From positions 1 to 20,653 of the IMG/VR virus record IMGVR_UViG_3300017727_004754: a stretch of DNA of 20,653 bases. The stretch is one strand, 5' to 3'. The DNA is from a virus. Below, piece by piece: positions 2-19,682 of the stretch. Under the pieces are notes generated by a model. It worked only from the letters and a program-made list of their open reading frames with translations. It made no database searches and was not told the DNA's origin. The number at the start of each line of letters is the position of its first letter. Positions within the stretch are counted from its first letter, which is position 1. The translations under genes were made by a program, and so were the position numbers.

Positions 2-3000
2 AACAAGGTTGCTACGTTGTTCGCTACTGGGTTTGGAGGTTTACAAAGTGCATCGTTTAACTCCCGAGACGTCCTCGATAACGGGGGAGATGCAGGACAA
101 GCCTTAAATGCGGGTATCCTAGGATTCGGGACTACCTTCCTTGTCTCAAACGGTTTTAACAAGATAGGTTTGGGTGGTGTTGAAGACTTCCGACGTCGTG
201 CCGCTTTAGGTGGTAGGATCGCTAAGTCACAGCTCATGCAAAGACTTGTTAATGTCGGTGTCGGTGTAGTCGGAGAAGGCATCGAGGAGTTTGTGGATGA
301 GTTTATTAACGGTCTTCATACCCAGGAATTCACAGGAGCTAGTTCTCAGGAGCTTGCTGTCAACGCTTTTAAAGCCGCTGTTATCGGGGGTGGTTACGGG
401 GGATCTTTTGGTCTGGTTAGGCAAACAGGAGAACTACCCTCTACTAGCGACAGCACCGAGTCAGTTGGTGAGACAACTGATGAAGCTATGGCGGGGATGG
501 AACAGGGTGTAAGAGATTCAAGAAAAGAGTTATCGCAGTCCGTTCAAGATCTTCTTCAAGTAACGAATAGCCGTATTGCTACTCTTGAGAGTAAAGAAGA
601 GCTTAATGAGGCTGAGCTGACAGAGCTTGAAGATCTCCAAGAGCAGAAAAAAGATCTACTAGACCCTAATCGTAATGTTTCTCCTGATGTAGTAAGCGAG
701 TTAGGGAAAGCCTCTGGCTTAACTAAACAAGAGATTGGTGAGTTAAGCGACTCTGAGAACCTGACATTAGAATACGATAGCGTAGAAGAGATCCCTACGG
801 TGATCAGGTCAAACGCTGCGAGCACTACGACCATCACAGTCGATGGGAAAGAAAAAGTTATCGTAAGAATCTCATCTATTGATCTCAAACAAGCGGAAGG
901 GTTTTCTATTACACCTCCGGCTGAGCCGGTTAGTGATAAGCAGGAACCGGTTAGTGATAAGCAGGAAGAAGAGGAGAGTTCTGAAAATGTAGAGAACGAG
1001 AATGTAGTTCCTGTTGATGAGGTCACCCCTTCTTCTACTAAGTTTAGTCCTCCTTCTGAACCTACCATTAGAGATAGGCGTGAAGAACCAGACCTACCTA
1101 TATCAGTTAATAAAAAATCCAAGGCTACTCGACGCGAGATATCCGGTGGAACTAAAGAGTCGGACATTATTGATCCTACCAAGCGTAAGGAAAAGTTTGA
1201 GAATATTGGTTATAAAGACCAAGGGGCTGAGGTCACTGATAGTGTGTCAGACCGTATCCTTAAAGCTTACAAAAAAATAGTGAGTAAAATAGGTGCGGTG
1301 TACGTAATGGGCCGACTTGGAGGACACCTTAACGGCGGTGTGACAATATCCCCCAACCTTGATTCTAATACAACATCCCGTGTTTTAGCTCATGAGCTTG
1401 GTCATGCTACTCACGGAGCATATTCAGAAGAAATAAACGAGTCCTCTGAAATACAAGAGGAGATAGCTAAGATTGAAGAGAACCTGTATCCTGGTCTTAG
1501 AAAGAAAGTTTCTGAATCCGATAACGCTGATGTAAAATTCTTTAACTACCTACTGTCTCCTAACGAAATTATTGCGGAGTTTAATGTTCTTCGTTTCACC
1601 AACCCTAAGCTAGCAAAGAAGATCGCTCCCAAACTGGACGCAGTCCTCAAAAAAGGAGAGTCTAATGCTGATGTGGTAAAGAAGAGAAATTCTACGTCAG
1701 GCTTTACAGGATCACCTATTCCAGTAAACCGATTCTTTACCGTAAACAAAGATGGTGTTGTGGCTAGATCTGATAAAGGTCCTTCAGAATCAACATTACC
1801 AGACTACCGAGAAACTTTAAGAAGAGCCGATAGGGGGCATGTCTTTCTTGTCTCAAGCCGCATCTTAGAACTGGTGAAAGCGGGTAAGCTGAAACAAGCA
1901 GAGGTTATACTTAACAGGCTCAAAAAAAGTATTGAGGAAAGAGGTACACTCTCCCCAAATGCTAGCAGAAGCCTAAAAGAAATAGAAGAGGTTTTGGAAG
2001 AAGCTATGCCTTCCGAGCTTTCGGGAGTTGATCGCAGCTCAGTAAACCCTGACACCTTCGTTAATTTTGTGTATGACGATAACGGCGTGCCAACTGCTCT
2101 GGACATCGAGGGTAACGAACTCTCTCCCGCCGAAGCAGAGAGGAGACTGAAAGTCAAACAGAACGAAGAACAGCTTTCGGATAATCTTCAAGAGCGTCTT
2201 GAGCTTTCTTTAATAGAGAACCCTTCTAACGAAATCAAAGAAGAGATTGAAGAAGCTAAACTAAAAGCTGAAGAGTCTCAGCTCCTTGCCCCTATTGAAG
2301 ATGACCAAGATGTAGACGAGGACGTATCTGAGGATGAAGAAGTAGCTGAGGACCAAGACGAGGATAACACTCCTACCCCTGAGACACCTTTGGTTAATTT
2401 GCCTTACAATGTTCTAAAGGAAAAAGCAGCGTCTATCAATGCTCAGATAAACCTCAACCGGACAATGGGATTTTTCCCAGCTCTCGCTGACACCCGTCCG
2501 ATTGCTTTAAACAGAAGTAAGAAAGACCTCGCTGAATTTATTGAGGAAAATCAAGGGGCTGAGAAAGGTAGGGGCGTCAGCCTTAACAGGACTAAAACTG
2601 ACGTAGCCGAAGAGACTCTCGGTAAAACAGAAGAATCCAAAGAAGAAAAATCAAGCGATACTTCTGTTGATTTAGAACCCTTACGAAAAAGAAACACGGA
2701 TCTTATAGGAGAGGCTACGAATGGGAAGCACTACGGTAAGGGTGGTATTCCGAAAAAGTTTTTCACTGAGGAGCCGACTCAAGATCTTGTGGAAGACCTT
2801 GATACGTGGATTGGTAAAAAGGAAGACGCTTCCATAGAATATGAAAATAAGGCGAACCCAGACCCCAACGTAGAGTCTCATCGTAGAGACGAGATTGAAT
2901 TGGCACTGGCTCTTTCCGAGTCTCTAGGAAACACTCTCGCAAAAGATCCTGGTATCAGTGAGGAGGTAGTGGAAGAGAGTCCAACCACAGAAGAGGAAGC

Positions 3001-6000
3001 TGCGGAGAAAAATCCTGATGGAGACCGGTTGGATGTTCCTTCTTCTAAAATTAGAGAGATGAAAGAAGGGGTATTAGAGGCTCTGGAGGACACTTCATCC
3101 GAGATCATATCAGACTCTGAAAGATCTAGATTCAAATCTCTTATTGAAAAAGCTAACACCGAATCAGATCTGGTTGAAATTCAGAACGAGGTCATAAACA
3201 TTGTAGTTGAGCCTGACTTATCAGAGGAAGGTTCTATCGATGAAAATGAGGATGTTGATGTCGATGCCTTTTTACGAGAAGCTAATGCGTATCAGAAAGA
3301 ACAGTACACAGAACGCTTTATTTCTGGTGAGAATTCCGTAGATATTGTTCGTGATCTCAGAACCAACGGGTCGGCTGATCTACTGACTGATGAAGAGATT
3401 GAAGATCAAGAAGACTCTGACGAAGGAGATGCGCTGGTGTTATACAGCATGATTTTCCCCGATCCCGCCTTAGTGTTAAAAGCTGCTAAAGGGATCTGGA
3501 ACACGACCAAGAAATTCACCGAATTCTCCAAGAGAATGATCGAGGGTTTTGGTAATCGTATCCGACCTATTCTTGGACGATTGTTTGCCGATCTCAAGAA
3601 AAACGATGGGAAGGTCGATAACAGTAAAGTCATAGAACCTGGGAGCGTTGCCAAGCGCCGCAGCATAAAACCAGATGATGATTCTGACGTAGACGCTAAG
3701 TTAGAAGAAGACAAAAAGAACGCAGGACAAGTAGGGTTATCTCCTCTCAATAGCGAAGAAGATATAGAAACTCCAGACACGGCTATCCCTTTGCTTTCTC
3801 GGGAAGATGCTAAGTTACTAGGACAGGACAAACAATCAGTTCTTAATCTTGCAGATGCGGTTACGGGGTCTAAGCCAGTTCGTTCCGTTATGGAGTACAC
3901 GGCGTCTTTGTTTAACCTCCCACTGGGTAATGCTAAGATCATGCTTCAAAACGTGAAGGACTTTCTCCCAAACATAGCTATAACTGCTAACGCATTTTCA
4001 ATGTCCACACTCCCTTCTGAAGCTAAGGTTATGAGGACTTTGCTCGAAGAAAAGTTTCCTGACCTTAAAGTTAAAAAAGATGACAAGGGTAATATTGAGA
4101 TTCTAGGAGTCCTTCGTAAAGACGGGGGACCTACCCCTAAATATTTCTCAGACTTAGCGGAAGAAATACAGAGAGACTTTGAAGCGTTTGACTTTGCCAG
4201 CGATAACGTGCGCGACTTCTTCAGAGAAGTGGTAAAATTTAATCGATGGGCGGTAAAAATGGCTAGCTCAGAAGGGGTCGTTCTTGCAGAAGTTATGAAC
4301 GAAGACGGAACTGGCATAGACATTGGACGTCTATCCGAGTTAATCTACGCTGCAAGAGGAAAAGTAACGCACCGAGATATACTGGACAACCCTCGTAATA
4401 GCAGAGACTACAAAAATCGCATGGCTAAAACTGGAGCCAAGGGTCAGCGTAAGTTTAAGACCGAAGCCGACGGAATTACTGCTGGGTATATTTACCAGGA
4501 CCACCCTTTCGACCGGATGGTCGATCAGATTATTTCTGTTAAGGCTATGGTGTATAACCAGCGTTTGTTTAGTGACAGTGACTTCCGCTCGGTAGCCCTT
4601 CCTTCTAAAAGAACCGTAGTCACAGAAGAGCGAGTAGATCCTATCTCTGGAGAAACTATAGTTAAGAGGAAAAGTATCAAGAAGGGGGACGAGCTTCTCG
4701 AAGATGTGGTTAGGCTCGGACCTCTCTCTATGCGTGCTTCTTCGGCTGACGCCAAACAGATTCAAGACGGCATCGACCGTATTCACTCAAGCAGTTCTCT
4801 TATTACTGGACTTGCTGACCTCGCTTCTATTCCTAGTAAACTTGCCCTCGCGATTGATTTAAGTGCGATGTTCTTGCAGAATCTCTACACACTGTTCACT
4901 AAACCTTTCCGTTGGGCTAAAATAACTGGTCTCTCAGTTTCAAATCTTGCAGGTAAGCCGGAAAGACTTAGAAAAGAAGTAGCTCAGCGTGCTGACTATA
5001 TTAAACTGGCTGTCCAGCACGGAGGTCAATGGGCTACTATTGCTGAAGAATTTATCAGCAACAGAGCAGAAGCTGACGTATTAGAAAGACAGAGAGACGG
5101 CGCTCAAGCAGCAGGACGTGCAGCAGTCCGACCTGTTCAACGTGTGTACACTAAGTTCGGTGAGCTTCAAGGAATTATGCAGTCACTAGCTGCGTCTTAC
5201 ACTTTCGAGTCCGATATCCTTCGTTTAAAAGCAGAAGGTAAGTTTACTACAGAGAACATTGCTTTAGCAGCTAAGTCTGCTGATAATATTCACGGACGAG
5301 AAAACTTAGCCCGATACGGTCTTAACAGCAACCTGGTTACAGCTAGCCGAGGGTTTCTTACAGCAGCCGGTATGTATGTTGGTTTTGCGTCGGTGGTTCT
5401 AGATTTGGCTAGCCCTAATAAACAGATTAGGAAAAATGCTACACGGCGTCTAGGTCTGTTTGCGGTAGGTGTTCATGTATCTTACTTTGCTCTCGCCATT
5501 GCTGCTGAGATGGCTGATGAAGATGAGGATGACGAAAACGCAATCTCTAGAGCTGCCAAAAAAATAGGACGTCGCATGATTCCAGGAGCAAAAGACTACC
5601 TTACAATCGATTACCAAGTTGGCAATGGAACTAAGAAGTTACAGTGGGGAGGATTCTACCGTGGTCTTATGAATGCCGTCGCCGGATCTGCTGCTCAGAA
5701 CTTAGCAGACACCATGGGAATGGAGAATGCAAACATCGATAAAACTACTGTTGATAGAATGGGTAACTTTTTGGGAGGTAAGCTTCGTAGCTCCATGCAC
5801 ATGGCTGATCAGTTAATATCGGGTGAGGATTTCTTTGGTAATCCAGCAACTAAAGTGGAAATACTACGTGCTAACCTGATCCCACTCTCAGCCGGTCCTG
5901 CTGTTGTTGCTGCTACTGATCCAGTTTTAACCTACCTTCACAAGTCCACCGGAATTTCTTTGGTAAATCTAGACCGAATCGCAGTAGAGAAACCTGACCT

Positions 6001-6514
6001 CAAACTAAGCATCTTCGATACCATCTCTAACTTCGTAGGTATCAATGGGTATGTGGAGGGGGAATCAGCTAAGTTTAATCGCGCTCTCGATAAAGAAGCT
6101 AAGTCTCAGTTTAGTAAAAGTTACGACACCCTTACTATGCAAGAAGCTAGAAAAGTAAGGACAGGAGTGAACCAGCAAGGTGTATCGAAACCCAGGTTTA
6201 AGAGAAGCATGGAGCCTATATTTGAGATGAATAGGAGGCGGCTCAAGAGAGATCTAGGTGGTGTTAGATACAACAACCTAAATACTAAGACTATAGATTC
6301 TCTGATAGCAAGGTTCCCGTTTAGTGTCGTCATGAAAAAGAACGAAGAGACAACTAGAGTTCCTTTGAATCTTCAGAATAAGATGCGCGGTGAAATTGTT
6401 GAAGGTCTAAAAAAAGCAATAGACAACGGTATAGCAAACGATGCCCTCCGCCTTAAAGCGAAGGACATCGCGAACGAATCTCGTAAGGCTAACGGCTTAC
6501 CTACTGTTAAATAA
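2..6514 (+). CDS. Giant virion-type polyvalent protein with HExxH metalloprotease motif (5' partial)
   Basis: The reading frame has no stop up to the left edge, so the true start lies outside; a TTG at 17 is no convincing start. Numbering residues from 17, an HELGH motif at 459-463, with a likely third ligand in the downstream NEIIAEF segment (about 515-521), is typical of zinc metallopeptidases found in phage polyvalent proteins. Residues about 160-350 and 700-1150 are very rich in Glu, Asp, Lys and Ser and look like coiled or disordered linkers. Around 1609-1640 the pattern LALAIDLSAMFLQN resembles the polyvalent-protein domain often called LPD38. Two hydrophobic stretches near 1779-1797 and 1812-1833 could span a membrane. 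Known proteins of this build are packaged in the virion and enter the cell with the DNA, where the parts act on host targets; that role is inferred here. The gene ends in an 8-base tail-to-tail overlap with the next gene. The protease motif is clear; the remaining domain calls are tentative. Confidence 0.85.
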   Translation, partial: NKVATLFATGFGGLQSASFNSRDVLDNGGDAGQALNAGILGFGTTFLVSNGFNKIGLGGVEDFRRRAALGGRIAKSQLMQRLVNVGVGVVGEGIEEFVDEFINGLHTQEFTGASSQELAVNAFKAAVIGGGYGGSFGLVRQTGELPSTSDSTESVGETTDEAMAGMEQGVRDSRKELSQSVQDLLQVTNSRIATLESKEELNEAELTELEDLQEQKKDLLDPNRNVSPDVVSELGKASGLTKQEIGELSDSENLTLEYDSVEEIPTVIRSNAASTTTITVDGKEKVIVRISSIDLKQAEGFSITPPAEPVSDKQEPVSDKQEEEESSENVENENVVPVDEVTPSSTKFSPPSEPTIRDRREEPDLPISVNKKSKATRREISGGTKESDIIDPTKRKEKFENIGYKDQGAEVTDSVSDRILKAYKKIVSKIGAVYVMGRLGGHLNGGVTISPNLDSNTTSRVLAHELGHATHGAYSEEINESSEIQEEIAKIEENLYPGLRKKVSESDNADVKFFNYLLSPNEIIAEFNVLRFTNPKLAKKIAPKLDAVLKKGESNADVVKKRNSTSGFTGSPIPVNRFFTVNKDGVVARSDKGPSESTLPDYRETLRRADRGHVFLVSSRILELVKAGKLKQAEVILNRLKKSIEERGTLSPNASRSLKEIEEVLEEAMPSELSGVDRSSVNPDTFVNFVYDDNGVPTALDIEGNELSPAEAERRLKVKQNEEQLSDNLQERLELSLIENPSNEIKEEIEEAKLKAEESQLLAPIEDDQDVDEDVSEDEEVAEDQDEDNTPTPETPLVNLPYNVLKEKAASINAQINLNRTMGFFPALADTRPIALNRSKKDLAEFIEENQGAEKGRGVSLNRTKTDVAEETLGKTEESKEEKSSDTSVDLEPLRKRNTDLIGEATNGKHYGKGGIPKKFFTEEPTQDLVEDLDTWIGKKEDASIEYENKANPDPNVESHRRDEIELALALSESLGNTLAKDPGISEEVVEESPTTEEEAAEKNPDGDRLDVPSSKIREMKEGVLEALEDTSSEIISDSERSRFKSLIEKANTESDLVEIQNEVINIVVEPDLSEEGSIDENEDVDVDAFLREANAYQKEQYTERFISGENSVDIVRDLRTNGSADLLTDEEIEDQEDSDEGDALVLYSMIFPDPALVLKAAKGIWNTTKKFTEFSKRMIEGFGNRIRPILGRLFADLKKNDGKVDNSKVIEPGSVAKRRSIKPDDDSDVDAKLEEDKKNAGQVGLSPLNSEEDIETPDTAIPLLSREDAKLLGQDKQSVLNLADAVTGSKPVRSVMEYTASLFNLPLGNAKIMLQNVKDFLPNIAITANAFSMSTLPSEAKVMRTLLEEKFPDLKVKKDDKGNIEILGVLRKDGGPTPKYFSDLAEEIQRDFEAFDFASDNVRDFFREVVKFNRWAVKMASSEGVVLAEVMNEDGTGIDIGRLSELIYAARGKVTHRDILDNPRNSRDYKNRMAKTGAKGQRKFKTEADGITAGYIYQDHPFDRMVDQIISVKAMVYNQRLFSDSDFRSVALPSKRTVVTEERVDPISGETIVKRKSIKKGDELLEDVVRLGPLSMRASSADAKQIQDGIDRIHSSSSLITGLADLASIPSKLALAIDLSAMFLQNLYTLFTKPFRWAKITGLSVSNLAGKPERLRKEVAQRADYIKLAVQHGGQWATIAEEFISNRAEADVLERQRDGAQAAGRAAVRPVQRVYTKFGELQGIMQSLAASYTFESDILRLKAEGKFTTENIALAAKSADNIHGRENLARYGLNSNLVTASRGFLTAAGMYVGFASVVLDLASPNKQIRKNATRRLGLFAVGVHVSYFALAIAAEMADEDEDDENAISRAAKKIGRRMIPGAKDYLTIDYQVGNGTKKLQWGGFYRGLMNAVAGSAAQNLADTMGMENANIDKTTVDRMGNFLGGKLRSSMHMADQLISGEDFFGNPATKVEILRANLIPLSAGPAVVAATDPVLTYLHKSTGISLVNLDRIAVEKPDLKLSIFDTISNFVGINGYVEGESAKFNRALDKEAKSQFSKSYDTLTMQEARKVRTGVNQQGVSKPRFKRSMEPIFEMNRRRLKRDLGGVRYNNLNTKTIDSLIARFPFSVVMKKNEETTRVPLNLQNKMRGEIVEGLKKAIDNGIANDALRLKAKDIANESRKANGLPTVK
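923..964 (+). repeat. Two tandem 21-bp units inside the giant gene
   Basis: Two adjacent 21-base copies differ at one base (GAG versus GAA) and encode the heptad EPVSDKQ twice, at residues 303-316 of the giant protein. They sit in an acidic linker ahead of the protease domain. The near identity suggests a recent duplication by slippage, in a region that tolerates length change. Confidence 0.85.
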
Positions 6515-6737: not shown

Positions 6738-8747
6738 TTATCTCGGTATGTCAGTAAGGTCGGCCCAGTTGGGGCCTATCTCCCCGTCCACAAGCACGGG
6801 TACTCTGAGGTCTACGGCTGTCTCCATTACGTGAGACATTTCTCTGAATGCTTCGTCCGACCCTCCTGGGTCTGAGAAGTCTAGTTCATCGTGAACCGTC
6901 ATACGGGGTACTCCCGTCGCATCAAATATCCCGTCCTCCCAACACTTCACCATAGCCGACTTCATCTGATCAGCAGCCGTTCCTTGAATGGTGTAGTTGG
7001 TCGCCTTGTATAGTCCGGCTCGCATGATGTTTAACCCGTATTTCTTAATAGCTATCAAGCGTGGTAGAGGTATAGAATCAGCATCGTATTTACAAGGCTC
7101 CCATTTATCGAACACCACCTTTCGTCCCAGCAAAGTCTCAGAGTAACCCTTCCTACCTGCTCTTCTTGAAAAGTAGTCCATCGTATCAGACACGTAAGGT
7201 AGCGCGTCGTTGTAGGACTGAAGGAGCACCTTGGCTTTCTTGAACGGTATCCCTAGTTGAGCGGCGAGGGATTTGGCTTGAAGACCGTAGACAATACCGA
7301 AGTTAATATTCTTAATAGGTTTACGCCACTTCTTATACTTCTCCTCAGTGCTGATATCCCAACCAGCAATAGGGGCCACTAGATCTAGACACCAGTTGTG
7401 GTAATCAGTTTGGGGGTTGTCGATATACTGCTGTCGAAGACGGTCGCCGGACGACCCAACCGCATAGTGCGCGAAGATCCTGTTCTCGATAGAGGCGTAG
7501 TCATACTTACGCCAGAATGGGTGACCCTCATCCGGCACAAAGCAAGATCGGATCATATGAGCTAAGTTGTTTCTAGATGGAAGGTTCTGTAGGTTGGGAT
7601 TTCTAGAGCTGAAGCGTCCGGTCTTGGCTCCTAACGGATCAAACTCCCCGAATAGTTTACCGTTGATGCTGGACTCAAGAATGTAACCATCTATAAATGT
7701 GGACTTATACTTCTTCAGCTCTTCTATATCAATGATCAGCTTACACAGATTGTGATCCGATTGCTCAAGCACCGAGGCTTTAAGTGATACCTGTCCCGTT
7801 GGAGTACGCTGAGTCTCTATCCCAAGTGAATCAAAGATAGGCCCCATCTCTTTAGGAGAACCTGTCTGCGTTCCCTTACGTCCAGTAATTTTGTCGATTT
7901 TCTTTTGAGCGTTATTAATATTTTTCTCAAACCCTTTACTTGCTTTCTCGGCTGCGTCTATGTCTACCGACACACCGGCCATACGCATCTCGATCAGTAG
8001 AGGTAATAGCTTACACTCCAAATCAAAAGAGGCATCGAGACCGGCCTTGTTTAGTTTCTTGTACTGCTTCTTAGCCAGCTCGATAGGTGCGCGTACGTCT
8101 GACTCAGCATAGAAACCCACAAGGGTAGCCGGTGTTCGGTAGAGGTTCTGCATTGCGTTAGCGCGTAAACTCTTTTTAGAAGACGGCTTTGAACTCTGTC
8201 CGAAAGCTTTCCAACACCAATCATATAGGATGCTCTCGTCCTTACCCCTAATCCCGTACCTACTGCAAGACCCGCCGAGGCTAGCATCCTCGTAGTAGTT
8301 GAGAAGTTTCTCAGCTATACGGGTATCCCACAACTTTCCCTTAACCACGACGTTCTCCTCTCTCAACCATCCCAAATCGTAGATAAGATTGTGTCCTACT
8401 TTAGTCTGACGGCTCCTTGATAGCTGCTTTCTAAGCCAGTTAAAAACTACCTCGGGATCGTGGTTATCCTCACCGTTGCACTCATGCCGTATCGGGTAGT
8501 ACCTCTGCCAACCATCGTCAGTGCCTACTGCTACCCCTATTATATGGCCGACCCCTCGTCCCCAGCCAGCGCCAAACTGTATCAGTCCTGGGTCTTTGGT
8601 CTCGACATCTATGCAGATGGCTTTTGCCCTCGATAGATCGGGGAAGTCAGACCGTCTCTTCCAACCGGTCTTAGGGATCTCCGGTCTTGGGTTAAACTTG
8701 ATCTTCTTCCGTTTACCATCGGACTTTAGATTAAACAGGTCAGGCAT
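6738..8747 (-). CDS. polA: Family A DNA polymerase with 3'-5' proofreading domain
   Basis: This is the replicative polymerase of the phage. The N-terminal DEDDy exonuclease shows ExoI D47-x-E49, ExoII with N120 and D124 (GHNLIYD), and ExoIII with Y213 and D217 (YAESD). The polymerase domain shows motif A DYASIENR at 416-423, motif B R475, K479, F483 and Y487 (NINFGIVYG), and motif C VHDE at 618-621. All catalytic carboxylates are present. At 669 residues it is close to T7 polymerase (704) and lacks the 5'-nuclease domain of bacterial Pol I. F483 aligns with E. coli F762. The ATG overlaps the stop of the upstream clamp-like gene by 8 bases, indicating coupled translation of polymerase and putative processivity factor. 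Family assignment is very secure. Confidence 0.98.
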   Translation of the reverse strand: MPDLFNLKSDGKRKKIKFNPRPEIPKTGWKRRSDFPDLSRAKAICIDVETKDPGLIQFGAGWGRGVGHIIGVAVGTDDGWQRYYPIRHECNGEDNHDPEVVFNWLRKQLSRSRQTKVGHNLIYDLGWLREENVVVKGKLWDTRIAEKLLNYYEDASLGGSCSRYGIRGKDESILYDWCWKAFGQSSKPSSKKSLRANAMQNLYRTPATLVGFYAESDVRAPIELAKKQYKKLNKAGLDASFDLECKLLPLLIEMRMAGVSVDIDAAEKASKGFEKNINNAQKKIDKITGRKGTQTGSPKEMGPIFDSLGIETQRTPTGQVSLKASVLEQSDHNLCKLIIDIEELKKYKSTFIDGYILESSINGKLFGEFDPLGAKTGRFSSRNPNLQNLPSRNNLAHMIRSCFVPDEGHPFWRKYDYASIENRIFAHYAVGSSGDRLRQQYIDNPQTDYHNWCLDLVAPIAGWDISTEEKYKKWRKPIKNINFGIVYGLQAKSLAAQLGIPFKKAKVLLQSYNDALPYVSDTMDYFSRRAGRKGYSETLLGRKVVFDKWEPCKYDADSIPLPRLIAIKKYGLNIMRAGLYKATNYTIQGTAADQMKSAMVKCWEDGIFDATGVPRMTVHDELDFSDPGGSDEAFREMSHVMETAVDLRVPVLVDGEIGPNWADLTDIPR

Positions 8748-9708
8748 TAGCGTATGTGGTTAGCACCATCCTAAAGTGCTTCTGTCCGTTAGCATGTAGG
8801 CTCTTCATGCCCTTGTCAATATAGATAATGTTATCGATGGTAAGATCCATAAGAATATCGAACAAGGGTTTTCTGACAGTAAAGCTAAACTCTCCCCTGC
8901 TCTTGATCCTTAACTCTCCCACGGATTTGCCCTCGTCTAGAGTGTAGGTTATGCCTTCGTTAGATACCGTGACCGTGTCGCACTTGATACCCGACAACTC
9001 CTCTACTACCTGTTCGTTGATTTTAACTTCGTCTCCTTTAGTTACGACAACCCCTTGAAATGTTGGGAATTTTTCAGAGTCAATTATCTGACTGCAAACT
9101 GTCATACCGTCATCGTAGTAAAACTTGATGTGAGTCCCGTCATACGCTACACGATTTACCTTAGCGTCCAAGGTTGACATAAACTTCAGAGTGTCTATGG
9201 GAAGAACCAGATCAATATTTTTACTTAGGCCGGAAGGAAGAGCGAGTATCACTTTTCTATTAGTGGCAACTGCCATGCGGTCTTTTAAGAGAACACCTTG
9301 GAGGGCGTGCAAAGGATCTGAGGGGTTGATACATTCAAGCAAACACTTAATTGCTTTCTTACTAGGAAACTTTTTCACCTTCTCAGGTTCAGACAGTACA
9401 TCGATGATAGGCATGGCGGTCCCCTCAACTGTGGTAATTGTTACTCTTTCTCTCTTGTGTTTAACCAGCATCTTACCGTTCTTGTGGGTGTAGACCACAC
9501 CTTCCCTAGGCTTACGGAAGAAGTTTAATAAAGGTTTTGGAGAGAAAGCGCAGTCAAGTCCGTTTTGGAAAGGAACCTGAACGCAGAAAACACCACCATA
9601 AGATACCATCTTATTGTTGTGAAACTTAACCATAGAAGCAGCAACCGAGGGTGAGTTTTCACTGCACGATTTCATCACGTGCGTCAGTTTATTCTTGATG
9701 TCATTCAT
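8740..9708 (-). CDS. Beta-clamp-like protein, putative polymerase processivity factor
   Basis: The middle of this 322-residue protein resembles the second domain of bacterial DnaN clamps. A beta strand leads to an ATNRK segment (about 148-152), where DnaN has TDGHR. Next comes a proline-preceded helix (VLPIDTLKFM) and a strand-rich part, then IIDSEKFPTF (about 208-217), where DnaN has a glycine and FP before the third domain. The length is close to DnaN (about 366) and the C terminus is short and hydrophobic. A clamp would encircle DNA and tether the polymerase, which fits its place directly before the polymerase gene with an 8-base overlap. I place the start at the ATG that overlaps the helicase stop by 8 bases (ATGAATGA), not at a TTG five codons upstream. 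Sequence identity to true clamps is low, so another DNA-binding beta-rich fold is possible. Confidence 0.6.
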   Translation of the reverse strand: MNDIKNKLTHVMKSCSENSPSVAASMVKFHNNKMVSYGGVFCVQVPFQNGLDCAFSPKPLLNFFRKPREGVVYTHKNGKMLVKHKRERVTITTVEGTAMPIIDVLSEPEKVKKFPSKKAIKCLLECINPSDPLHALQGVLLKDRMAVATNRKVILALPSGLSKNIDLVLPIDTLKFMSTLDAKVNRVAYDGTHIKFYYDDGMTVCSQIIDSEKFPTFQGVVVTKGDEVKINEQVVEELSGIKCDTVTVSNEGITYTLDEGKSVGELRIKSRGEFSFTVRKPLFDILMDLTIDNIIYIDKGMKSLHANGQKHFRMVLTTYANA

Positions 9709-11386
9709 AGGTAATTTCTTCAATAGTTTGAAACTTGCAGTTCATATCAACCAGGATTTTAGTAGGATCTTTTAGCTCATCGGGCGCTCTTTCTACAGCT
9801 TCAGCCGCTGTCTTAGGGTATCCTTTGTATGCAGAAGGACGGCCGTTCTTTTTCTTTAAAGCCTTCCACCAGAATGATCGGAACCTATTTACTGGTGCTT
9901 CGTAGGCGCTCTCGGGATAGTCTCCCTTAGTAAACGATCCAGACAGCGTAGCGTAGTTAGTGCGGAAATAGTATTGTTTCGTTTGTCTCGATACACCAAC
10001 TCGATAGAGTGTGGAGATGACGTCGAAGCTCTCTGTACTAGGTTCGAGGGTTTCTCTAACCATGACATCATCCTGCCCCGCCTTCTTCTCAATAGTATCG
10101 GGTGGAGGGAACTCGTATCCGCACTGAGCACAAACCGATGCTCGGGTGTGAGCATACGTCTCACACTGGGGGCATACCTTTACCGGAGCCTCGCCCTCAT
10201 TACCGTCACCTTTCTGTCTTTTCGCCGGTATAACGGGGCAGTTGATAGCCCCTAGTCTTCGCGTGTTACCGGCAAAGTCCAGGATTAGACAGTTCTGCTT
10301 TGTCCCTTTCTTAATTGCTTTCAATCTTCCTGTCTGGTCACTGATATCAACCCCTTTCTTATACACGCAACGTGTCCCTCGTCCACACATCTGTACCCAT
10401 AGAGCCGTTGACTGTGTAGCACGGGCGACGGCGATGAGATCGAGAGGAGTGAAGTCGTATCCGGTGGTGTAGAGACCGACGTTGACCATGGCTCTACACT
10501 TCCCACGCTCCCACTTTGCCTGCTCCTCCTCTCTTCTTTCTGATTTAGAGTGGAGACAGATCGCGCTGATACCGTAAGACTCGAACATCTCAGCCAGTGC
10601 TATTCCGTGCTCAATACCGGAGGCGAATACCATCCAGTGCTTTCGATCCATGCCATATCGAATACACTCCTCCACCACGGCTTTGTTATTCTCCATTGTA
10701 TTAGAGATCTCTTCCGCCTGCTTCTTGTTAAAGTCCCCTCCTTTAATAGACATCGCGCTAACGTCGAACTCAGTAGCTGCTTTCTTGGTTATAAGCGGGG
10801 ATAGGTAGCCCTGATCGACGAACCAATTAAACTTCTCAGTTTTAGTGTAGTCGAACGAGACATAGTCAACCCACTTATGCTCTGTCAGATAACCCTGACC
10901 TAGTCGATACGGTGTAGCTGACAGGTAGATGATCTTCATCTTAGGGTTTATCTCAAGCAAGCAAGAGATGAAGCGATCATACATCGAATCCTGCTCCGGC
11001 GAAAGCATGTGGGCTTCGTCAATAAAGAGGACGTTGACTTTACCAAACTCTTCAGCACGTCTATGAACAGACTGGATACCGGCGTAGATTACTCGGTTGC
11101 GTTTATCCCGCATGTTAAGGCCGGAGGAGTAGATCCCTACGTCAGCTAACTTCCACATCTTCTTCATGGCGGTAGCGTTCTGGTCGATGATCTTTGCATC
11201 GTGCGTTAAGCTCATGACCCTGTCTCGCTTATACTTGCGTGCAATCTTACGGATCAGCGCGTTCATGATAAAAGTCTTACCGACACCTGTCGGAGCCACC
11301 CCCAGAGGATTACCATCTTTGTTGTGTATATCGTTCCATAAGGTGTCTACTGCCTCCCTCTGGTAACATCGTTGTTTAAGCTTCAT
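9701..11386 (-). CDS. DEAH-box superfamily 2 DNA helicase with zinc ribbon
   Basis: This ATP-driven helicase or translocase has Walker A PTGVGKT at 32-38, motif II DEAH at 123-126, motif III SAT at 156-158 and the C-terminal motifs TTGYDF (307-312) and Q332-MCGRGTR (motif VI). After the RecA-like domains, four cysteines (C405, C408, C419, C422) form a zinc ribbon. A C-terminal part of about 130 residues has no recognised fold; its WW-containing segment near 510 resembles tails of other phage SSL2/RecQ-type helicases. In phages such enzymes unwind DNA for replication or recombination. The start codon overlaps the nuclease stop (ATGA) and the 3' end overlaps the clamp-like gene, so all three are probably made together. 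The superfamily is certain; the exact role in replication is inferred. Confidence 0.95.
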   Translation of the reverse strand: MKLKQRCYQREAVDTLWNDIHNKDGNPLGVAPTGVGKTFIMNALIRKIARKYKRDRVMSLTHDAKIIDQNATAMKKMWKLADVGIYSSGLNMRDKRNRVIYAGIQSVHRRAEEFGKVNVLFIDEAHMLSPEQDSMYDRFISCLLEINPKMKIIYLSATPYRLGQGYLTEHKWVDYVSFDYTKTEKFNWFVDQGYLSPLITKKAATEFDVSAMSIKGGDFNKKQAEEISNTMENNKAVVEECIRYGMDRKHWMVFASGIEHGIALAEMFESYGISAICLHSKSERREEEQAKWERGKCRAMVNVGLYTTGYDFTPLDLIAVARATQSTALWVQMCGRGTRCVYKKGVDISDQTGRLKAIKKGTKQNCLILDFAGNTRRLGAINCPVIPAKRQKGDGNEGEAPVKVCPQCETYAHTRASVCAQCGYEFPPPDTIEKKAGQDDVMVRETLEPSTESFDVISTLYRVGVSRQTKQYYFRTNYATLSGSFTKGDYPESAYEAPVNRFRSFWWKALKKKNGRPSAYKGYPKTAAEAVERAPDELKDPTKILVDMNCKFQTIEEITYE

Positions 11387-13339: not shown

Positions 13340-14011
<672 letters not shown>

Positions 14012-15345: not shown

Positions 15346-15555
15346 ATGGACCGAACACTGAAGACCGAAACGAGGCAGCTACTAGCCGTATGCGACTTAA
15401 CATACCAGAAAATTTCAGATAAATCAGGAGTGCCTTATGGTGCGCTCTATCACTTTGCCACCAAGGGGGACGACATGTCTTCCGAGAACATGCAGAAGCT
15501 GTATGAGTTTCTGTCTGGGAGAGTTCTCTTAGAAGGGGAGGACGGCAGTGAATAA
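15346..15555 (+). CDS. Small HTH (XRE/Cro-like) DNA-binding regulator
   Basis: This 69-residue protein has a helix-turn-helix pattern at about 19-50: TYQKISDKSGVPYGALYHF, where the SGV turn and following helix match Cro/CI-type domains, then a further helix (SSENMQKLYEFLSG). The length suits a single-domain Cro-like repressor or activator. It is first in the plus-strand operon, faces the divergent control region directly, and its stop overlaps the primase start by 8 bases, so regulator and primase are made together. It probably binds the intergenic region and sets the balance between the two replication transcripts; that role is inferred. No ribosome site precedes the ATG. Confidence 0.75.
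   Translation: MDRTLKTETRQLLAVCDLTYQKISDKSGVPYGALYHFATKGDDMSSENMQKLYEFLSGRVLLEGEDGSE
15533..15541 (+). promoter_or_regulatory. Strong Shine-Dalgarno sequence deciding the primase GTG start
   Basis: AAGGGGAGG lies 6 bases before the GTG at 15548, inside the end of the HTH gene. It is the best ribosome site I found in the window and supports the GTG over an ATG fourteen codons downstream. Confidence 0.7.
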
Positions 15556-17929
15556 AGTTAATATCAATTACGAAAAGCTTCCTTCTTGCATGAAGAAGCT
15601 GGATAGATGGGTGTGCTTTGACATAGCCCCCCATCCTAATAAACCGGACAGCACTCTCAAGATACCTTACATCGCAGGTAGCGACAAGAAAGCTAGGTCT
15701 AATGATCCCGAAACATTCTCCTCTTACAAAGAAGCTCTAGCCTGTGTCAATCGTGGCGAGCGCGACCATCTCGGTTTCTGCTTTATGAAAAAAGATGGTA
15801 TGGTCGCCCTGGATATCGACTACACTAGTTGCCCAGAGGAGCAGGGTAAGAATAAACTTATCTTTCAAACCTTCCCATCATACAGTGAGAGGTCTGTGTC
15901 CGGCAAAGGATCCCACATCTTTATGCGTGGTGAGCTTAACGGCCGTGGTCTCCATAACTCCCATCTTGGTGTATTCGATGACTGCCGTTTCATCTTAGTC
16001 ACAGGTGATATTATCGAAGGACGAGACAAGATTAATAGTGGAAACAAGGAAGCCCTTCTCTCTCTTCAAGAGGACGTGAGGACGAGCGAAGGAAAGGGAT
16101 ACGACTTCGATCTTGAGGAAACTGAGTGGGACGCTCAGCCATGCTGGGTCAACTACATCTGTGGATGTATCTACGGTAAAAAGTTTTTCAATCTGATCGA
16201 CGGTAAGTGGGAGGGTCTAGGTTACCCTTCCCAGTCGGAGGCTGACCATGCCCTAGTCAATATGTTCTGTGACGTTACTGAGAGCAACGAGCTAGTCCGG
16301 TATTTGTTTGCCGAGTCTGGTCTCTACAGGGAGTGGAAAGCTCGAAGAGATTCAGAGTCGGGGGAGTATTCGGTGAAAGGATACATCGACTACTCGATCA
16401 GGGAGAACAGGGGGAAGAAGCTACGCGCTGCTGAAGTTAGAAAGAGGGCTGTAAAGAACATTGAGAAACGTAGAAGAGAAAAGAAAGTAGCTAGGAAAAA
16501 GAGGAGTAAAAAGAAAGCGGTGTCAGACAACAGCTTCAGTGATGATGAGATCTTCACTGTATCAAGTAAGGAAAGCTTCAACTACCCGACGGATTTGATA
16601 GATGCTGTTCCTTCCAAAATCGTAAGGTGTCTTGCTCGATACCTCTACAAGAGAAGCTACCGTCCTAATCAGCAGGTCTCTATACTTTCTGCTTTGGTGG
16701 CTATTGTTAAGGAGTGCCAGCGTGCATGGCTTACTCCTAGTGGAACGGCGTGTGTGCTAAACTTGTGGGTTCTAGGCGAGTCTGGTTGGGGCAAAGAAGC
16801 GTTCACCAAGTCTTTGGGATGGATAACATCTGACCTGATTGAAGACCACCCTCAGTATGGAGAAAGCCATGTTGGGAAGTTTGCTTCGGGTGAAGCGGTG
16901 GAGACCGCTATCTCCGAGAGCAAACGGGTTATGTCTCATGTCCCCGAAGCTGGGGCGTATTGGCGTAAGCTACTCAATCCTCACAAACCACCGCATATCG
17001 ATGCCTTGTGTGAGGCTACTCTTAATACGTTTATGGCTGCTGATCCTAAGTCGTTTTGGAAAACAAGACGTAGAGCTAAGAAAGACGAGGACACCATGAC
17101 GAGAGTCTACCGTCCGGCTGTTAGTATGTATGGTGAATCCACAATAGAAGACCTGTTCGGTGACCTGGATTTGTCAGCCTCTAAGACTGGCCTATTGCAG
17201 CGACAGATTTTCTTCTGCTTGAAGGAGCCGGATTACGTTGAACCTAACAACTTAAACCCTGACATGCCACGCAAGCTTCGCGATAGCCTTGTCTCCCTCT
17301 CGGAGGCAGCGGACGCGCTGGATCAAAAGGACGATACGATTCGAGCACGCATTACAAAGAAAGCCCACCACATGATCTCCAGCTATGAGAAAGAGAAGAC
17401 CAACCATGGGTTTGGTAAGGCTAAGGATAAGCTAAAAGCTGAGCTTATGAACCGCTCGGCTATCAAGGTCTATCGTATGGCCACCGTATTGGCAGTAGGG
17501 GATGACTATGAAAATCCGGTGATCAAGGAGAAGCACGCCTCCTTCGCTATCAAGATGATCGAACACTGCGACCTCTCGATGGTGAAGAGGTTTAAGACTG
17601 GCGACATTGGCAAAGGTCAGGTAAAGCAAGAGCGGGACATGCTCAAAGTGATTGATCAGGTAGTCTCTGCCTCTGTACGTAACCGTCGTCGAAGCTATAG
17701 AATGTCTGAGGCTGCATCCGAGGACACGTCCATCGTCCCCTACTCACTGCTAAAAAATAAAATGAAAACTCGGACGAGCTTTTCTGGGGATAGGCTCGGC
17801 ACTCTCACCGCCATTGATAGATGTATCGACAACCTGTGCCGTGCCGGAACTCTCGTCCGCCTGAGTAAGGTAGACTGTGAAGAGGATTACGACACGGCAG
17901 CAGGTCTGCTTCGATACACGGGGGACTAG
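15548..17929 (+). CDS. Primase-polymerase (AEP, COG4983-like) fused to a P-loop DUF3987-like domain
   Basis: This 793-residue protein probably primes phage replication. The N-terminal domain matches primase-polymerase-like proteins: DRWVCFD (19-25), KIPY (38-41), SNDPETFSSYKEA (51-63), the metal-binding DID at 89-91, and SVSGKGSH (116-123), corresponding to AEP motifs I and II; CRFILVTGD (146-154) follows. YPSQSEADHAL (226-236) is a known signature after this domain. A lysine/arginine-rich linker (about 285-325) leads to a P-loop domain with GESGWGKE at 410-417 and later a strand near VSMYGES, resembling DUF3987 helicase-like proteins. The usual Ser/Thr after the P-loop lysine is Glu. The GTG start has a strong Shine-Dalgarno sequence and overlaps the HTH gene by 8 bases. 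The stop shares CTAG with the convergent gene. The primase call is strong; helicase activity is uncertain. Confidence 0.9.
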   Translation: MNKVNINYEKLPSCMKKLDRWVCFDIAPHPNKPDSTLKIPYIAGSDKKARSNDPETFSSYKEALACVNRGERDHLGFCFMKKDGMVALDIDYTSCPEEQGKNKLIFQTFPSYSERSVSGKGSHIFMRGELNGRGLHNSHLGVFDDCRFILVTGDIIEGRDKINSGNKEALLSLQEDVRTSEGKGYDFDLEETEWDAQPCWVNYICGCIYGKKFFNLIDGKWEGLGYPSQSEADHALVNMFCDVTESNELVRYLFAESGLYREWKARRDSESGEYSVKGYIDYSIRENRGKKLRAAEVRKRAVKNIEKRRREKKVARKKRSKKKAVSDNSFSDDEIFTVSSKESFNYPTDLIDAVPSKIVRCLARYLYKRSYRPNQQVSILSALVAIVKECQRAWLTPSGTACVLNLWVLGESGWGKEAFTKSLGWITSDLIEDHPQYGESHVGKFASGEAVETAISESKRVMSHVPEAGAYWRKLLNPHKPPHIDALCEATLNTFMAADPKSFWKTRRRAKKDEDTMTRVYRPAVSMYGESTIEDLFGDLDLSASKTGLLQRQIFFCLKEPDYVEPNNLNPDMPRKLRDSLVSLSEAADALDQKDDTIRARITKKAHHMISSYEKEKTNHGFGKAKDKLKAELMNRSAIKVYRMATVLAVGDDYENPVIKEKHASFAIKMIEHCDLSMVKRFKTGDIGKGQVKQERDMLKVIDQVVSASVRNRRRSYRMSEAASEDTSIVPYSLLKNKMKTRTSFSGDRLGTLTAIDRCIDNLCRAGTLVRLSKVDCEEDYDTAAGLLRYTGD

Positions 17930-18591
17930 TCTTGCCAGTCTAGATCTGCGTAACGCACACCCTCATCGATGTGGGTATGCCTATCGTCAACCCCTTCTTT
18001 ATATGCCCTGGTCCAAATCTCACAGGACTTCTCCCCATTAGAGAAGGAGTCTGGTATCGCATATCCACGATGAGAGGTTGGGCATTTCTCGCAGTACGTT
18101 TCAGAGAGTGCTGCTTCGTATGCTAGAGTAGCTAGCTTGTCCGGCGTAACCTGCTCCATACATCTATCCGTTTGGTAGAATGGTTCATAGTCCGTGCTCT
18201 CGATGACAAGAGATACAGAGGCAGTGTAGACGCTGCTCTTCTGTTTCTCTTGAGCGTAGGCATCCAAAGCATCGGGTAGATCCTCGAAGGCGGTAACTGT
18301 CTCGACCTCAGTTAGCTTATCCATCACCGATAACAACACTGATCTACCGCCTCCAACCCTGATGTAGAGAGATCGAGAGTTTGACATCACCGTCCGTTCC
18401 ACCATGTCCCAGATCCCTAGAGACCTAACATGTCTGGAAGGTGTATGCTCAGTCACTGTGGACAGACCGTGGAACTGACTAGGAGATAGTCCGGTGAGTT
18501 CATTAAACTTACGCTCGAAGTCCCAGTCTTGGCAGCTACCATTATCGCTAGGGGTCACCAGTTTTTCTTGAAGAACTTTAATGTGGTTCAT
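17926..18591 (-). CDS. Hypothetical protein (221 aa), last gene of the accessory operon
   Basis: I recognise no family. The protein is soluble with mixed charge. The middle (about 74-130) has alternating hydrophobic residues suggesting beta strands (SLYIRVGGGRSVLLSVM, VYTASVSLVIES) around a glycine turn. The C-terminal third begins with a helix (DKLATLAYEAALSETY) and carries C167, C170 and C190, with histidines at 174, 205 and 207 that could complete a metal site. Its ATG overlaps the methyltransferase-like gene stop by 4 bases (ATGA), so the two are probably co-translated and may act together. The stop codon overlaps that of the convergent primase gene. The frame is clearly real from its packing and composition. 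Confidence 0.85.
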   Translation of the reverse strand: MNHIKVLQEKLVTPSDNGSCQDWDFERKFNELTGLSPSQFHGLSTVTEHTPSRHVRSLGIWDMVERTVMSNSRSLYIRVGGGRSVLLSVMDKLTEVETVTAFEDLPDALDAYAQEKQKSSVYTASVSLVIESTDYEPFYQTDRCMEQVTPDKLATLAYEAALSETYCEKCPTSHRGYAIPDSFSNGEKSCEIWTRAYKEGVDDRHTHIDEGVRYADLDWQD

Positions 18592-19682
18592 GCCTTGCCT
18601 GTGATTTGGGTTGCGAGAGCGTGAGCGATCCCGTCGTAGGTAACGGACTTAACTTTACCACGGTCGGCTACTGGCCCCATCGATGGTCCGCCGCAGGGTG
18701 ACTGGTTCTTCCATCTCCACTTGCCAGCGTGCTTCCCTTTACTTACTTGGTATCCGTTCTCTTCTACGGACAACATGTTAGTTGCTGTCAACTTGCTGGC
18801 GTTCTTTAACCACAAGCATGTCTCCTTTGTTTCGGGGTCACCAAACCAATAGGGTTGTATTATCTGATCAGGCTTTCTCCACATGGACGAAAGGAATCCT
18901 TTGGGATTCTCTATCACTACCTTCTCTGATGAATCCCAGATGAGCTTGACGAACTCGATAGCATCGGCCCTTGCCTCACGCCTCTCTTTTCCAACCAGCT
19001 TATCCGGTCCTAGTTTCTGGTGATACCCGACTCCAGGATACTTCTCGTAGTCAGGATCCTTAAAGGCATACGCCGCACTCACGGTGAGGTAGGTGCAGGG
19101 AGGGAAGGCGTACACCTCATCCCACTCCATCGACAGGTAGGGTGTCACATCTCCGGTGATATGCCAACCGTAAGGACTTCGTGTGTCGAGGATGTCACAG
19201 GATACTGCGTCGTGTCCGAGGGCAGTCAGTTCGTCTCTGACCTTACCGGACTCCTCACATGCTACGAGGATTCGTTTAGCACCTGCCTTGAACTGGCTGA
19301 TGAACGGGGCTGCGAGGGTGGAGGCAGCTAGGGCTAAGGCCACCGCTGCACCTGCAACCTTCTTAGTTGGTGCGTGACCTCGGCGGATAGTTATCTCATC
19401 CGGCCCGACCGTGATGTCAACGTGAGTTGCATCCTCTCCGAACACATCCAAGATCTCGTTCGTGTTCGTGTCGATGATAGGTCTAACGTCAGTGCCAGCA
19501 ACTTTTCTCTGCCGACCTTCCGTCGATCTACTAGGTTTACTGTAGACGATCTCATCGTTGTGGTGATCGAATCGCGAATAGAATTCGTCACCTCTCTCCC
19601 ATCCTTCAGCAGCGAGGGCTTGTCCCTCGATCCAGATTCGGGCTTTGCTTCGGTTCTTACCGATACGTAATGTTTTCTTCAT
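18588..19682 (-). CDS. Cytosine-C5-methyltransferase-like protein with N-terminal extra domain and hydrophobic segment
   Basis: The catalytic part (about 135-364) opens with an AdoMet-site-like strand (RILVACEESGKVRDEL), contains the PPC motif at 194-196 (FPPCTYL) whose cysteine is the nucleophile of C5 methyltransferases, and has ENP at 258-260 in place of the usual ENV. WRKPDQIIQPYWFG and ETCLWLK (286-292) are hallmarks of the phage branch of this family. Residues 1-104 form a separate domain (RIWIEG, RKVAG, RPIIDTN) which I have seen attached to phage methyltransferases and which resembles small AbrB/SymE-like folds. Between them, residues about 109-128 are almost all Ala, Val, Leu and Phe, enough for one membrane helix. 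It could modify phage DNA against host restriction, or act on a nucleotide; the substrate is not visible. It is followed by a gene overlapping by 4 bases. Confidence 0.85.
   Translation of the reverse strand: MKKTLRIGKNRSKARIWIEGQALAAEGWERGDEFYSRFDHHNDEIVYSKPSRSTEGRQRKVAGTDVRPIIDTNTNEILDVFGEDATHVDITVGPDEITIRRGHAPTKKVAGAAVALALAASTLAAPFISQFKAGAKRILVACEESGKVRDELTALGHDAVSCDILDTRSPYGWHITGDVTPYLSMEWDEVYAFPPCTYLTVSAAYAFKDPDYEKYPGVGYHQKLGPDKLVGKERREARADAIEFVKLIWDSSEKVVIENPKGFLSSMWRKPDQIIQPYWFGDPETKETCLWLKNASKLTATNMLSVEENGYQVSKGKHAGKWRWKNQSPCGGPSMGPVADRGKVKSVTYDGIAHALATQITGKA

Follow-up and report, generated by a model that had tools for sequence, protein, structure and literature searches.

Phages encode DNA methyltransferases of the phrog_757 family as standalone proteins of about 185-271 aa, an example being Bcep1-12 of Burkholderia phage Bcep1. 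Plasmids of Azospirillum, Halomonas and Iodobacter carry proteins recorded as DNA cytosine methyltransferases, MraZ is a transcription factor made of two AbrB halves, and M.HhaI has the C5-cytosine methyltransferase fold. Here we describe a gene from a 20,653-base IMG/VR virus record (the window, meaning the whole stretch of DNA that was analysed) in which an MraZ-like domain is fused to a phrog_757 methyltransferase. The original prediction centred on a membrane-length hydrophobic segment within this protein; the rare fusion is the more interesting feature. The features discussed below are as follows.

18588..19682, minus strand: the complete gene of 364 aa, joining an MraZ-like N-terminal domain to a phrog_757 methyltransferase (open reading frame, phrog_757 match, relatives of like architecture)
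19377..19682, minus strand: residues 1-102, the N-terminal domain with an MraZ-like tandem AbrB fold, which probably binds DNA (AlphaFold2, VIA-align, sequence relatives)
19284..19376, minus strand: inter-domain linker, residues 103-133 (sits between the domains in the AlphaFold2 model; low identity to two relatives, L034 and L036)
19299..19358, minus strand: hydrophobic segment, residues 109-128 (hydropathy and composition; modelled as a helix over 112-127 at low confidence)
18591..19283, minus strand: catalytic domain, residues 134-364, compact C5-cytosine methyltransferase fold of phrog_757 (family profile, VIA-align, conserved Cys and Glu)
15548..17929, plus strand: DNA primase gene, context and not part of the protein (phrog_3022, E 8.6e-118)

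The two domains and their fusion

The catalytic part belongs to a known phage family. Residues 134-362 match the phrog_757 profile ‘DNA methyltransferase’ with an E-value of 1.1e-49 over model positions 13-220 of 247, and VIA-align superposes this part on M.HhaI with a Z-score of 12.1 (197 residues, rmsd 4.2), bearing out the original description of the protein as DNA-methyltransferase-like. M.HhaI and DNMT3 are the top VIA-align rows at Z 11-12 and Foldseek ranks 1 to 8 are C5-methyltransferases, the fold being that of this class. The Cys and Glu motifs of a C5-cytosine DNA methyltransferase are both present: Cys196 of the PPC motif is conserved in 38 of the 38 members of alignment A7 and Glu258 of the EN motif in 37 of them. 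We take these to be the catalytic residues, as expected of a C5-cytosine methyltransferase, and the enzyme would methylate cytosine. The window protein matched nothing in Pfam or NCBIfam; Pfam DNA_methylase (PF00145) in particular touched a single one of the 38 alignment members, at E 0.06. A search of the defence-system library likewise returned no match.

The N-terminal domain is modelled by AlphaFold2 at a pLDDT of about 95-98 over residues 1-100 and shows the tandem swapped-hairpin AbrB fold. Residues 1-104 align with MraZ at a VIA-align Z of 7.9 over 91 residues (rmsd 2.9), a score just under the value of 8 below which a match can mean merely a common arrangement; the first row that is not MraZ reaches a Z of only 3.7. 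The match rests on VIA-align and this gap to the other rows because the Foldseek E-values for MraZ are weak (best 0.021). Profiles of AbrB and of SymE each matched 2 of 17 members of the N-terminal domain family, weakly. Neither the N-terminal profile nor the other profile found a solved structure by sequence, and single-protein patterns of the N-terminal part alone found no relatives. From its modelled fold, the domain probably binds DNA.

Plasmids supply 80 records with the same domain, and of the 40 rows listed 39 are annotated as DNA cytosine methyltransferase; the phage collection supplies 3 records. Among viral contigs 16 carry it, 14 as a standalone protein and 2 fused to a phrog_757 domain, and two further standalone contigs were found (L127 and L128). 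At 8 of the 14 standalone loci the next open reading frame is small, about 50-60 aa, with one strong hydrophobic span and a basic tail, and is noted here without a claim of homology to the window segment. This frame is placed as follows.

Immediately following the domain gene, from about 1225-1330 or 3275-3285 on: small hydrophobic open reading frame (L021, L022, L024, L027, L029, L030, L031, L032)

A separate case is the plasmid protein at 2046-2366 of L016 (Vibrio anguillarum p292), where the N-terminal domain is joined to the apparent last residues of a cytosine methyltransferase, so that by its sequence it looks as if the middle had been deleted.

Three other proteins combine both domains with a hydrophobic stretch between them: L034, L035 and L036. 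The contig of L035 is the same as that of L018, L038, L124 and L125, that of L036 the same as L023, L040 and L126, and that of L034 comes from a Rubritalea MAG, its placement by binning being taken as given. Their N-terminal domains are identical to that of the window at 47 of 99 (L034), 46 of 99 (L035) and 39 of 93 positions (L036). With 4 cases in all among the material searched, the pairing of an MraZ-like domain with a compact methyltransferase appears to be rare. It is absent from the phage collection records matched by the whole query or by the N-terminal domain, and none of the 276 matching phage records covers 80% of the query. Searching 387 genomes of the phylum of G008 with alignment A4 gave one match, that of L034 itself. 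More fused cases may exist, since the contig scans used short degenerate patterns. Each half was already known and it is their pairing that is rare.

In L034 the fused methyltransferase (4001-4816; 271 aa) stops short after its PC motif, where it has FTPC in place of FPPC, yet it retains both the N-terminal domain and the linker. For a protein that did nothing but methylate this would be odd, a point against the explanation favoured below. L034 and L035 each have a relative of the window's primase near the fusion gene, encoded on the other strand, and these are therefore related phages. A search with the primase alone gave no relatives, and a three-row primase alignment recovered only a phage that was already known (L124, the same as L035).

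Two other genes of the window were recorded. A DNA polymerase processivity factor (8740-9723, minus strand; phrog_947, E 4.6e-17) lies beside a family A DNA polymerase. At 13340-14011 on the minus strand is a 223-aa protein, with no Pfam or PHROG match, which ends in a long Asp run, and this tail is reminiscent of the acidic tails of single-strand DNA-binding proteins.

The hydrophobic segment and its linker

The original prediction had placed the segment between the N-terminal and the catalytic domain, and this is where the AlphaFold2 model and the domain matches put it. Residues 109-128 read VAGAAVALALAASTLAAPFI (nucleotides 19358-19299 on the minus strand), with nine Ala, three Leu, two Val and one each of Phe, Ile, Gly, Ser, Thr and Pro. 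The position was given correctly, and the description as a nearly pure run of Ala, Val, Leu and Phe slightly overstated the purity, as these make up 15 of the 20 residues. The uncharged run extends over 21 residues (109-129) and the top 19-residue Kyte-Doolittle mean of the protein, 1.87, lies at residue 110. When the whole protein was shuffled 20,000 times, 530 shuffles matched a hydropathy of 1.87 or more and 250 matched a 21-residue run, a rate of 1-3% that applies to one protein picked after the fact. Among the 14 window proteins scanned, a 2170-residue open frame (2-6514, plus strand; no PHROG match) scores higher, with the most hydrophobic 19-residue stretch at 1.95. On these two grounds the hydropathy of the segment alone is unremarkable. 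What lifts the segment above chance is a shorter hydrophobic stretch at the corresponding position in each of the three fused relatives. The segment is thus confirmed as real, though its hydropathy is not rare in itself.

The linker is hydrophobic in 4 of the 4 proteins found with this architecture. Its uncharged run measures 21 residues in the window protein and 14 in each of L034, L035 and L036, where the 19-residue means are 1.47, 1.44 and 1.64, respectively. Its identity to the window is 7 of 30 positions in L034, 15 of 30 in L035 and 7 of 31 in L036. In two of the three relatives (L034 and L036) the linker therefore drifts faster than the domains, keeping its hydrophobic character but not its length. 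Calculated as a helix, its hydrophobic moment is 1.18 in L034, 0.93 in L035, 0.76 in L036 and 0.46 in the window.

Nearly all standalone relatives of the catalytic domain lack the segment. In 37 of 85 standalone phrog_757 loci the first strand is preceded by fewer than 14 open residues, and in one the motif is missing. Among the 47 measured, a 14-residue mean of at least 1.77 occurs only in L112 and L094, as opposed to all three fused relatives, and in both the hydrophobic stretch lies mostly upstream of the ATG nearest the first strand. Where the N-terminal domain is fused to a longer cytosine methyltransferase, the linker position carries a charged stretch in 6 of the 6 proteins inspected (five plasmid, one phage). 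An internal restart yielding a separate methyltransferase was also considered: L035 has an in-frame ATG exactly at the position where standalone enzymes start, but the window has none there.

AlphaFold2, run on 38 sequences (mean pLDDT 84.6, pTM 0.68), draws a helix over residues 112-127 in the full model, at a pLDDT of about 45-53, below that of any other part of the protein; in a separate model of residues 1-136 the segment is without structure. A buried helix had been one of the options originally offered. The helix itself was drawn, but the model does not show it buried in the catalytic core, the outcome named beforehand as refuting an anchor: the segment is placed with the least confidence, and nearly all standalone relatives lack it.

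Possible roles of the linker

Architecture, folds, the conserved Cys and Glu and the kept hydrophobicity of the linker are computed rather than inferred. The explanation that we consider quite probable is a soluble phage DNA methyltransferase, in which an MraZ/AbrB-like DNA-binding domain is combined with a compact C5-cytosine methyltransferase that has no apparent large target-recognition domain, and the segment is an inter-domain linker and not a membrane span. Here the N-terminal domain would grip DNA and help to bring the enzyme to it, and the compact catalytic domain would methylate cytosine, the likely job being to shield the phage's own DNA from host restriction or to mark chosen sites. 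The hydrophobic segment would join the two domains, probably as a short helix packed on the surface of the protein's own domains or of a partner subunit; such packing is inferred, since the low pLDDT leaves the helix not confidently placed. Solubility of the protein likewise follows from this reading and would be expected. The linker option of the original prediction fits these data.

The original prediction had raised, among its options, a membrane-anchored modification enzyme. A true transmembrane or in-plane helix tethering the methyltransferase at the inner membrane, where it would act on DNA entering or being packaged, could draw on the 21-residue uncharged run with its mean of 1.87, on the basic residues at either side and on the hydrophobic character found in some measure in all three relatives, but we regard it as improbable. 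A 14-residue span is too short to cross the bilayer as a single helix, and with runs of this length in the relatives there is no conserved hydrophobic span of about 20 residues. Counting the other way, the window protein passes the usual Kyte-Doolittle cut-off of 1.6 and L036 does so barely. Insertion energies summed with Hessa-scale values, without a position term, are unfavourable throughout, at +2.4 in the window protein and about +6 to +7 in its relatives; the membrane assessment as a whole consists of hydropathy sums. Moreover, with one crossing the two DNA-acting domains would lie on opposite sides of the membrane, one of them outside the cytoplasm. An anchor was rejected on the short linker of the relatives, on this topology and on the absence of the segment from nearly all standalone enzymes. 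An in-plane or shallow helix between the domains, leaving both in the cytoplasm and placing the methyltransferase at the inner membrane to modify phage DNA on entry, strikes us as very unlikely. The membrane idea would have been the surprising part and it is unsupported. A signal peptide was also considered and rejected, as the stretch starts only at residue 109 and L034 and L035 start in line with residue 1.

Two further readings concern what a soluble linker might do. As a special case of the soluble linker enzyme, the segment could serve dimerisation or packing, as a helix that a second copy of the protein covers on its hydrophobic face; this is a tentative proposal that we would not put first. 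MraZ-like domains are known to assemble into rings and the N-terminal domain shares their fold; the higher hydrophobic moments of the relatives are expected of a one-faced helix, and in a model of the monomer such a helix would have no settled place, which agrees with the AlphaFold2 result. The idea is inseparable here from the broader explanation, however. It is also conceivable, though rather unlikely, that two once-separate genes were joined and that the join is a neutral scar with no function beyond its length. The faster change of the linker than of either domain in L034 and L036, the existence of both halves as separate proteins in other phages and the ATG of L035 would all be in keeping with this. 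Yet hydrophobicity was kept in all four proteins despite the drift, which suggests some constraint.

Comparison with known systems

If the fusion of a soluble DNA-binding module and enzyme works as proposed, an MraZ/AbrB-type module would take the place of a target-recognition domain in a compact C5-methyltransferase. Each module is also found by itself in other phages, and the part of each in site choice is thus open to comparison.

The catalytic domain of the window is of the same family as the standalone phrog_757 methyltransferases and is about 35-46% identical to the phage matches (60 listed of 276). Most of the standalone enzymes, unlike the window protein, start just ahead of the first strand, with neither an MraZ-like domain nor a hydrophobic linker. 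With the plasmid proteins the window shares its N-terminal domain, in which R15, E19, G20, L23, G31, P68, I70 and D71 are invariant in 9 of 9; their methyltransferase, called cytosine-specific in the records, is different from and longer than that of the window, and their linker is charged. MraZ has the same fold as the N-terminal domain at about 11% identity, whereas in the window this domain is fused to an enzyme. M.HhaI, at 327 residues, is longer than the catalytic part of the window protein (about 230 residues, with no large target-recognition domain apparent) and only about 14% identical to it, but the catalytic fold is shared and the PC and EN motifs follow each other in the expected order.
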